Shown here: piece after piece, positions 27,374-30,248 of the stretch
How the letters are laid out: every line of letters starts with the position of its first letter
Position numbering within the stretch: the stretch's first letter is position 1
Source of the DNA: a virus
Length of the DNA: 30,248 nt
IMG/VR virus record: IMGVR_UViG_3300032331_001341
Coordinates: 1-30,248 of that record
Direction: 5' to 3' (one strand)
The notes under the pieces: generated by a model
The model's input: the letters and a program-made list of their open reading frames with translations, nothing else
Database searches by the model: none
Told to the model about the DNA's origin: nothing
Program-made: the position numbers and the translations under genes

Positions 27374-27696
27374 CCGAATCCGAAATCCAAGCCGCCGTGA
27401 TGCGCAAACTCGGGAGCAGACCCGACACGCGAGTATTCCGAAACCACTGCGGGAGCGTGCAGGATAAGGCAGGCCGGTGGCACACATTTGGGCTGGCTAA
27501 GGGAAGCGCCGACCTCATCGGCTGGCAGTCCATCGAGATCACCGCTGATATGGTGGGCCAGCGCATCGCTCAGTTTCTCAGCGTCGAGGTTAAATCCGCA
27601 ACCGGGCGCGTGCGACCGGAGCAGGAAGCCTGGGCACGGACGGTGAACGAACACGGTGGACGCGCGGTGGTGGTACGCAGCACAGACGACTTATGA
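27370..27696 (+). CDS. VRR-NUC domain nuclease
   Basis: This 108-residue stand-alone VRR-NUC protein belongs to the Holliday-junction resolvase-like nucleases. Residues 45-50 read GSADLI with Asp48; FLSVEVKSATGRVRPEQ follows with Glu73, Lys75 and Gln85, completing the D-(E)xK-Q set. GGAGGAGGGGG upstream gives a good Shine-Dalgarno for ATG 27370. It is flanked by helicase-associated and primase genes, so it probably resolves replication branches or trims structures. Confidence 0.88.
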   Translation: MTESEIQAAVMRKLGSRPDTRVFRNHCGSVQDKAGRWHTFGLAKGSADLIGWQSIEITADMVGQRIAQFLSVEVKSATGRVRPEQEAWARTVNEHGGRAVVVRSTDDL

Positions 27697-29867
27697 CAAC
27701 ACGACTAGACTTCAGCGCAATCAACGAACAACTCCTAAGCAACTACCTTTCCACCCTCCAACAGTGGTTCCCCAATGGCCAAAAACTCGGCGCTGAGTGG
27801 TGCGTGGGCTCCCTGTCCGGGGAGCGTGGGAAATCGCTGAAAATCCACGTCCGAAAGGGCGTTTGGAAGGACTTCAGCTCCGGCGATGGAGGCTCCGACC
27901 CCGTGAGCCTATACGCAGCAATCCACGGCATCACGCAGGCTGAAGCCGCGCGCAGGCTGGACAACGCCGCGCCGGTGGCCATCACGCCAGCAGTGACCGA
28001 TGACGACGGGTTCACGCCGATCACCGACCCGCCTGACGACCTGCCAGACGCGGGCATCACGCATGGGCAGCGGTACACCTACCAGACGCAAGACAGACGC
28101 GTCCTCGGGTTTGTGGTGCGCACTGATGGGCCGCAAGGCAAAACGTACAGACCGCGCACGCCGTGGCGGGATGCCGACGGGCAGATTGTTTGGAGATGGA
28201 AGGGATTCACATGCCCGCGTCCGCTGTACGGACAACAACTCCTCAGCGCATACCAGCATGCCGTCGTGGCAATCGTGGAAGGGGAGAAATGCGCCGACAT
28301 TCTAGCGCGCGCGATACCCGGCACGCCGGTGCTGACGTGGCCTGGTGGCGCTGGAGGTGTCGATCACGTGGACTGGACGCCGCTCCGAGGCCGTCGAGTA
28401 GTGCTGTGGCCCGACGCTGACGAACCAGGGCGAAAGGCCATGGCCCGCGTGGGGGCGATTCTGACGGGGCTCGGATGCGCCGTGAAAACCGTGACGCTTG
28501 GGGACGTCCCCTCGGGGTGGGACGTGGCCGATGCCGTGGAGGACGATTGGACGCTGGAGGATATCACCGCACTGCTGGCAGGAGCGCGTCCGTATGCCGA
28601 GGAGGCTCCCATCGTGGCCCGCACAGTGACCACCACGCAGGCCGCACGAACGCCTGCGGGTGAGGCAGTCCAACGAGTGGAGGTGCGCGAGGAGTTCGGG
28701 CCGGTACCGAGGGCTGATCACGCTCGGTATGGGTTGAAGATCGGCGCAGGTGGCAAATACGTGCCATGTCTGGACTCGCTCTGTCGAATCATGGAACTGC
28801 ACGATTACTGGCGCGGACACATCTGGTGGGACTCCTTCTTGGAGCGCGTGCAGACCGACGTCTGGGGCGAGGTGGAGCCGTGGACTGATCAGCACGCGTC
28901 CAAGGCGTGCCGGTGGATGCAATCCGTGTTCGAGCTCCCTACAGCGTCGACCGACCGCGTGCATGAGGCTGCGATGTCCGTCGCGCGGGACAATCGGCGC
29001 AACGTCGTCACCGAATGGCTGGAGTCGCTTACGTGGGATGGTGTCCCGCGCATGGTGGACCTGATGCCGACTGGATTTGGGGCAGGGCCAGATCCTTACC
29101 ATCGGCGCGTGGGAGAATGCTGGCTGCTGTCCCTCGTGGCGCGAGTTATGCAGCCAGGGTGCAAGGTGGACACGATGCCGGTGTTTGAGGGCTCGCAGGG
29201 GCTCGGGAAGTCCTCCGCGCTGGCAACCCTCGGAGGCGAGTGGTTCGGGGAGTGTCACGAGGATTTTGGGAGCAAAGATTTCGTGCTCAGCTTAAAGGGC
29301 AAATGGCTCATTGAGGTGGCTGAAATGCACTCATTTCGTCGTCAGGACGTGGACCGCTTGAAGGGTATTATGTCCACCCGTATTGACCGCGTGCGCGTAC
29401 CCTACGGGCGGATGACCGAGGAGCACCCGCGCCAGTCCGTGTTCGCGGGCACAACCAACCGGGACGACTGGCAGGCTGACGATACGGGAGCACGCCGATT
29501 CTGGCCGGTTCGATGTGGGTTCCTGGACCTCAAATGGCTGACTGATTGTCGCGAGCAGCTATTTGCCGAGGCCCTCCGCAGGTATCAGGAAGGCGAGAAC
29601 TGGTGGAGTGTGCCTACCGAGGCCGCCGCAGCAGCAGCAGACGAACGCAGGCCCGAGGACCCGTGGGAGGCAGTGCTCGCCGATCACCTGGAGCCGACGC
29701 GAACCTATTCATCGCGGGAGCTTATGAATCACCCGCTTCAGATCGACACCGAGCATCAGTCGCAGGCAACAGCGGCACGCGTCGGGCGTGTCCTCCGTCG
29801 TCTTGGTTGGGTTCGGTTTGAGGTGCGCGGAGCCAACGGGAACGAAAAACGCTGGAAACTCGCCTAA
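27693..29867 (+). CDS. primase-helicase: TOPRIM fused to VirE-type ATPase
   Basis: The 724-residue product joins two parts. Residues 1-300: a primase-like N-terminus (GVWKDFSSGDGGSDPVSLYA) and a TOPRIM with EGEKCAD (Glu196) and LWPDADEPG (Asp241, Asp243). Residues 350-650: a virulence-associated E-type helicase core with Walker A EGSQGLGKS (Lys506), LKGKWLIEVAEMHSF and GTTNRDDW. A short C-terminal winged-helix-like part ends LGWVRFEVRGANGNEKRWKL. It should prime and unwind at the origin immediately downstream. ATGA overlap with VRR-NUC. No zinc-binding CHC2 cysteines are visible. Confidence 0.88.
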   Translation: MTTRLDFSAINEQLLSNYLSTLQQWFPNGQKLGAEWCVGSLSGERGKSLKIHVRKGVWKDFSSGDGGSDPVSLYAAIHGITQAEAARRLDNAAPVAITPAVTDDDGFTPITDPPDDLPDAGITHGQRYTYQTQDRRVLGFVVRTDGPQGKTYRPRTPWRDADGQIVWRWKGFTCPRPLYGQQLLSAYQHAVVAIVEGEKCADILARAIPGTPVLTWPGGAGGVDHVDWTPLRGRRVVLWPDADEPGRKAMARVGAILTGLGCAVKTVTLGDVPSGWDVADAVEDDWTLEDITALLAGARPYAEEAPIVARTVTTTQAARTPAGEAVQRVEVREEFGPVPRADHARYGLKIGAGGKYVPCLDSLCRIMELHDYWRGHIWWDSFLERVQTDVWGEVEPWTDQHASKACRWMQSVFELPTASTDRVHEAAMSVARDNRRNVVTEWLESLTWDGVPRMVDLMPTGFGAGPDPYHRRVGECWLLSLVARVMQPGCKVDTMPVFEGSQGLGKSSALATLGGEWFGECHEDFGSKDFVLSLKGKWLIEVAEMHSFRRQDVDRLKGIMSTRIDRVRVPYGRMTEEHPRQSVFAGTTNRDDWQADDTGARRFWPVRCGFLDLKWLTDCREQLFAEALRRYQEGENWWSVPTEAAAAAADERRPEDPWEAVLADHLEPTRTYSSRELMNHPLQIDTEHQSQATAARVGRVLRRLGWVRFEVRGANGNEKRWKLA

Positions 29868-29868
29868 A

Positions 29869-30054
29869 TGTTTCCGATGTTTCCGATCTGTTTCCGATCC
29901 TGTTTCCGCAATTCCCTCTGTGTTTCCGATGTTTCCTCTATTTTTATAAACATTTAATTTATAGGTACTGTAGGGAACGATGGACGCCCGCGAGGCCCAC
30001 GTGGCAACTGTTAGAGTTTGCGGAAACAGCGGAAACATCGGAAACACGGAAACA
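29869..30054. other. candidate replication origin: iterons flanking AT-rich DNA
   Basis: TGTTTCCG occurs at 29869, 29878, 29889, 29901 and 29921, with a one-mismatch copy at 29930. Its complement CGGAAACA occurs at 30021, 30030, 30039 and 30047. The 16-mer TGTTTCCGATGTTTCC appears directly at 29869 and 29921 and inverted at 30031-30046. Between the arms lies an AT-rich stretch (29938-29963). The array follows the primase-helicase gene. It fits an iteron origin with a DNA-unwinding segment. Confidence 0.72.
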
Positions 30055-30070
30055 GAACCCAACCAAAACC

Positions 30071-30248
30071 ATGAGCAAAATCCAATCAATCATCCACGAT
30101 CTGCGCGTCCTTAAGGCGGTTCACCCCGAGGCGCACGGGAGAGTGCTGCTCACTGCGGCGGACATCATCGAGCAGGCCGAGTGGATCATTGCCAACGCAG
30201 AGCCGGCGCCTGACATCTACGTTGACCCAGAACGCCGAGGTCAATGGC
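30071..30248 (+). CDS. 5' part of small hypothetical protein spanning the junction
   Basis: ATG 30071 follows the iteron array (context CAACCAAAACCATG, no Shine-Dalgarno) and starts MSKIQSIIHDLRVLKAV. Continuing at base 124 the frame ends at 161, giving 71 residues. See the matching segment at 1-161. Located next to the origin, it may be a replication accessory protein, but nothing in the sequence proves it. Confidence 0.75.
   Translation, partial: MSKIQSIIHDLRVLKAVHPEAHGRVLLTAADIIEQAEWIIANAEPAPDIYVDPERRGQW
30126..30248. repeat. terminal redundancy, right copy
   Basis: Exact copy of bases 1-123. It is the point where the circular assembly closes. Confidence 0.95.

Follow-up and report, generated by a model that had tools for sequence, protein, structure and literature searches.

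A set of short repeats in two oppositely oriented arms occupies positions 29869–30054 of the window, by which we mean the whole stretch of viral DNA analysed here, 30,248 nucleotides in length. Its location directly behind the gene for a primase-helicase raises the question of what such an array does and which protein reads it. In the reading that we consider very probable, the array is a replication origin, the helicase encoded just upstream is its initiator, and two rings of this helicase would load head-to-head. The identity of the array as an origin, already suspected in the original prediction, is well supported by sequence comparison, since the same two-armed array is found in many relatives and the organisation matches that of PICIs and SaPIs. 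That the helicase binds the array, loads as rings and melts the core, and that the array acts as an origin, we infer.

Architecture of the array

An identical stretch of 123 bases is present at both ends of the contig (1–123 and 30126–30248). This makes the window a complete phage genome, about 30.1 kb long and either circularly closed or terminally redundant. Both terminase subunits, small and large, are encoded, together with a portal, a head protease, a major head protein, a tape measure protein, an endolysin and a replication block comprising an exonuclease, RecT, a DEAD helicase, VRR-NUC and the primase-helicase. Nearly all genes share one strand, so that GC skew says little here; the minimum that had been predicted for 29.9 kb is absent from the cumulative skew. 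As originally proposed, the array adjoins the primase-helicase gene. It begins at 29869, one base past the stop codon (the gene ends at 29867), and is held in a 203-bp intergenic gap, the longest between called genes. The gene for a 71-residue product starts at 30071 and crosses the contig ends.

Ten units fill the array, the first six in plus-strand and the remaining four in minus-strand orientation. The left arm (29869–29937, plus strand) contains exact copies of TGTTTCCG at 29869, 29878, 29889, 29901 and 29921 and the mismatched unit TGTTTCCT at 29930, while the right arm (30021–30054, minus strand) contains four exact copies of CGGAAACA, which is TGTTTCCG on the minus strand, at 30021, 30030, 30039 and 30047. 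The predicted inventory of nine exact units and one mismatched unit, arranged five-plus-one forward and four reverse, could thus be confirmed at every position. Unit spacings amount to 9, 11, 12, 20 and 9 in the left arm and to 8, 9 and 9 in the right arm. Exact TGTTTCCG is restricted to the array, with zero further copies in the 30,248 bases. From a scan for exact 7-mers on both strands, covering 580 bp around the helicase stop codon, 10 copies of the unit were obtained, compared with at most 5 in any of 100 dinucleotide shuffles.

The arms are separated by a core of 83 bp (29938–30020). The AT-rich segment that had been noticed between the arms corresponds to a tract of 30 bp at 29937–29966, with 13% GC compared with 56% GC in the genome, and is the proposed melting site, while the remaining part of the core beyond this tract is GC-rich. 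In the GC-rich part, an element CGCCCGCGAGGCCCACGTGGC at 29985–30005 was recognised by alignment as similar in several relatives; core, tract and element carry no strand assignment.

Further features of the cores and arms can be described when the relatives, designated by L numbers, are considered. Beside the AT tract, the GC-rich element takes the form CGCGCGAG...CCCGCGTGGC in the window (29985–30005) and also in L001, L006 and L009; in L002, L003 and L007 the GC-rich core element is inverted and placed at the opposite flank of the AT tract. A GCAAGTGCCTT-like element, which may be the site of a host factor or of a second initiator, is observed between the distal and proximal left-arm units of L001, L005, L014 and L074 and is weak in the window at about 29909–29920. 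Purine-pyrimidine alternation extends over 26 and 22 nt in the cores of L018 and L019 (p 0.0005), is not general among cores and is absent from the core of the window.

The adjacent primase-helicase and its C-terminal domain

The gene upstream of the array (27693–29867, plus strand) encodes a TOPRIM/VapE primase-helicase of 724 aa, the proposed self-loading replication initiator. The protein was assigned by its match to the VapE-like family PF05272 (E 1.3e-70), by matches to PHROG DNA helicase/primase families and by structure alignment. In the full-length AF2 model (pLDDT 84.5), the TOPRIM primase region at residues ~112–303 aligns structurally to DnaG/T7 primases. The best structural match of this model by far is PriRep1 with dsDNA (7pds; Foldseek E 5e-26), and the VIA-align superposition on 7pds_A (Z 30.4, rmsd 4.8, 380 residues) covers model residues 340–724.

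The original prediction had seen no iteron-binding initiator nearby. This view has to be revised, since the C-terminal 70 residues of the helicase are predicted to form a winged helix and are the likely binder. Modelled alone by AF2, they show the order H-(E)-H-H-E-E with a pLDDT of ~81–90. The proposed iteron-binding domain (residues 656–724; 29658–29864, plus strand), delimited by AF2 and VIA-align, matches many winged-helix DNA binders in VIA-align at Z 6–7, middling values that speak for a common fold only. It aligns with the C-terminus of 7pds_C over 68 residues (Z 5.8, rmsd 2.9), and the predicted winged helix sits where PriRep1 carries its own. For the C-terminal domain alone, Pfam and PDB sequence searches returned nothing useful and Foldseek gave zero matches below E 0.001.

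In the mechanism we propose, the predicted C-terminal winged helix would read iterons of 8–9 bp and each arm would receive one helicase ring. Given the opposite orientation of the arms, the rings would be placed head-to-head on either side of the 83-bp core, open its AT-rich part and then depart in opposite directions. Replication would consequently be bidirectional, with primers laid by the fused TOPRIM domain.

Arrays beside related helicases

Relatives of the helicase were gathered from viral contigs and one MAG (L060). The latter is the sole match in the genome collection, a 4.3-kb contig (CAIOTJ010000047.1) of a Planctomycetaceae MAG that is possibly mis-binned, and gives a weak hint at the host group.

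In relatives ~28–87% identical to the helicase, the two-armed layout is found behind the stop codon of the helicase gene or reaching into its final codons, each relative having its own unit. Copy numbers exceeding those in all 100 shuffles were observed for TGTTTCC (L009), TGTAGCC (L001), TGTAACG (L006), TGTTACA (L060), GTTTCCT (L003, L002 and L007), GAACCCC (L013), TTCCGGC (L015), TCCATAC (L018 and L019), CCAACCT (L021–L026), TGACCAA (L028), CTCAGTC (L030) and GCTCCAC (L039 and L040). Arrays of L005 and L014 are weaker, being matched by 1 and 3 of 100 shuffles, respectively, and their layout is equal by eye. Two more arrays were assigned by layout, without a shuffle test, with nine copies of TGTTACC in L074 and eight copies of TGTTGCA in L081. 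The units of L013 and L074 are unrelated, although the two helicases are 82% identical. Layout, position and core length (~78–100 bp in most relatives) remain constant, and all units of an array change jointly, a behaviour to be expected if one co-evolving protein binds them all. The expectation that the same array would be found beside primase genes in relatives therefore holds for the layout, whereas the repeat sequence is not conserved.

The cores of L018, L019, L021 and L024 have 72–75% GC and are not AT-rich, so that melting of an AT-rich segment is not universal among the relatives. In L018 and L021, both unit orientations are mixed inside one arm. The iterons of L002, L003, L007, L013 and L074 overlap the 3' end of the helicase ORF, where their translation yields short peptide repeats, VSSVSSVSS or FLCFLCFLCF for example; in these relatives the protein tail consequently changes along with the iterons. 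L001 has a second set of four TGTAGCC located ~195–275 bp past the helicase stop codon, beyond the right arm, which brings its total to 12 copies.

Which protein reads the iterons

Most likely, the array is recognised by the putative DNA-binding domain in the C-terminal tail of the adjacent helicase. The helicase had been named as a candidate binder together with the 71-residue product, and with its predicted winged helix it retains this role. The 71-residue product was set aside as an unlikely binder, as a downstream match was found in L009 only among the relatives checked. The first 59 residues of this product gave zero family matches in Pfam/PHROG-type searches.

Within the predicted winged helix, the wing (residues 705–723; 29805–29861, plus strand) is a candidate specificity determinant, since its divergence tracks iteron divergence. 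Comparing wing divergence with iteron distance in 14 relatives, we obtained a Mantel r of 0.63 and, with the helicase core controlled, a partial Mantel r of 0.57 (p 0.0002). The partial r was 0.39–0.49 (p 0.001–0.007) for the 11 sequences left after removal of near-duplicates and 0.40 (p ~0.02–0.03) for the 9 full-length sequences, so that these values refer to 9–14 usable sequences. The iteron register was chosen by eye, and variants of the comparison based on 7-mers or tolerating shifts are in agreement with it. Of all windows, those in the wing score highest or nearly so. However, residues 439–463 correlate equally well, and the comparison of sequences is therefore suggestive, not proof, of the wing as the iteron specificity determinant. 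The recognition helix was considered for the same role and rejected, its partial r of 0.22 (p 0.11) being not significant.

The same data would also accommodate a more far-reaching reading, in which origin and helicase wing form a fast co-evolving lock and key and iteron sets are wholly rewritten between close relatives such as L013 and L074. This would lead to origin incompatibility between related phages and perhaps act against satellites hijacking the same helicase, and the AT-rich core would be dispensable, because the core of some relatives is GC-rich at a similar length. We regard this reading as possible, with the balance leaning against it.

Comparison with known replication systems

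In PICIs, the origin is always located immediately 3' of the gene for the initiator and consists of an AT-rich region with an iteron set on either side; PICI pri-ori plasmids are maintained only with both parts present (PMC6092414). In SaPI Rep, the C-terminal domain recognises the downstream iterons, and the isolated C-terminal domain of Cch2 binds repeats downstream of its own gene (PMC7581432). The window resembles the PICI/SaPI pri-rep-ori arrangement in that the putative origin is located directly 3' of the initiator helicase gene and oppositely oriented iteron sets flank an AT-rich region. PICIs and SaPIs have as their initiator a ring-forming helicase whose C-terminal domain binds dsDNA, and the helicase of the window aligns, together with its predicted winged helix, to PriRep1 (7pds). 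In contrast to a PICI, the window is not a satellite and represents a complete tailed phage, in which terminase, portal, head and tail are all encoded. Its unit sequence is its own, and its primase is TOPRIM/DnaG-like, whereas the primases of SaPIbov1 and SaPI5 are of the archaeo-eukaryotic type (PMC7581432). The organisation is already known from PICIs and SaPIs, and the window is its TOPRIM/VapE version in a complete tailed phage.

Similar arrangements are found outside this group. Like the window, SCCmec Cch2 has repeats, its putative origin, directly downstream of its own helicase gene, but the helicase is of the D5 type and the binding site contains only three iterons (PMC7581432). In Streptococcus thermophilus phage Sfi21, the annotated origin is a 302-bp non-coding, phage-inhibitory region directly 3' of a P4-type primase, where GTTACT-type repeats in opposite orientations surround an AT-rich core as in the window; the primase is a different one, and the Sfi21 array fails the exact-7-mer scan (p 0.16). 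P4 alpha is a fused primase-helicase with an origin-binding C-terminal domain, P4 has 8-bp type 1 repeats in both orientations, and crr is located directly 3' of alpha. However, in P4 the cis-acting sequences are split between ori and crr, two sites that lie apart, whereas all exact units of the window lie in one array.

From a survey of 22 named phages with VapE helicases, an array was detected at p 0.002 in six (Marinobacter PS3, Staphylococcus 2638A, Bacteroides F2, Corynebacterium StAB, Paenibacillus FutureBee and Streptococcus phiARI0460-1), while some others were marginal. Several of the 22 showed no array, mostly where the next gene abuts. The exact-7-mer scan is conservative, missing the annotated Sfi21 origin and one Streptococcus PICI, and a phage without a match is thus weak evidence. 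In 2018, the organisation was described as unique to PICIs and as occurring in no other known bacterial replicon (PMC6092414). Considering the arrays in named phages, Sfi21 and P4, this statement looks too narrow.

Other functions of the array

Rather than an origin, the array could be the operator through which a regulator controls transcription of the genes downstream, since it is intergenic and multiple direct repeats can serve as operators. We consider this very unlikely, because the downstream genes vary among relatives while the array stays beside the helicase, and because an operator does not require two arms of opposite orientation with a nearly invariant core length between them. Neither a sigma-70-like promoter nor a terminator was found in 29600–30248, which is a weak test.

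It is hardly credible, in our view, that the array is a packaging site of the pac/cos type bound by the terminase small subunit. Sites of the pac type often lie near terS, and the terminase small subunit gene (733–1311) follows about 0.8 kb downstream on the circle. However, the array keeps to the helicase while its distance to terS varies (~2.2 kb in L005, 1.1 kb in L015 and 3.6 kb in L007), the available flanks of L001, L006 and L009 contain no terS match, and in 2638A, StAB and FutureBee the array is followed not by terS but by genes of the replication block or by small genes of unknown function. Furthermore, it is the C-terminus of the helicase that is tracked by iteron divergence.

We give scarcely any credence to the idea that, in the 3' region of the helicase transcript, the inverted arms form a functional cruciform or long RNA hairpin: the predicted RNA fold of 29868–30055 is stable (−78.7 kcal/mol, z −8.1), but any inverted iteron set folds automatically, the arm spacings differ so that units pair and linkers do not, the direct repeats within each arm would be superfluous, several relatives (L018 and L021) have arms of mixed orientation, and an Rfam search gave no match. 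The perfect complement between the arms, originally put at 16 bases, is present with a length of 17 nt (29869–29885 with 30030–30046); the cruciform or RNA fold envisaged on this basis is physically possible and unneeded to explain the data.

Conclusions

Read as a probable origin with the adjacent helicase as its initiator, the array is instructive in that the repeat sequence shifts between relatives while the layout is fixed. Among the relatives, initiators are naturally paired with differing putative origins, and this series would allow specificity to be mapped to the wing. Since the array recurs in tailed phages with VapE-type helicases, the module is more likely a replication cassette shared between phages and satellites than a hallmark of PICIs.
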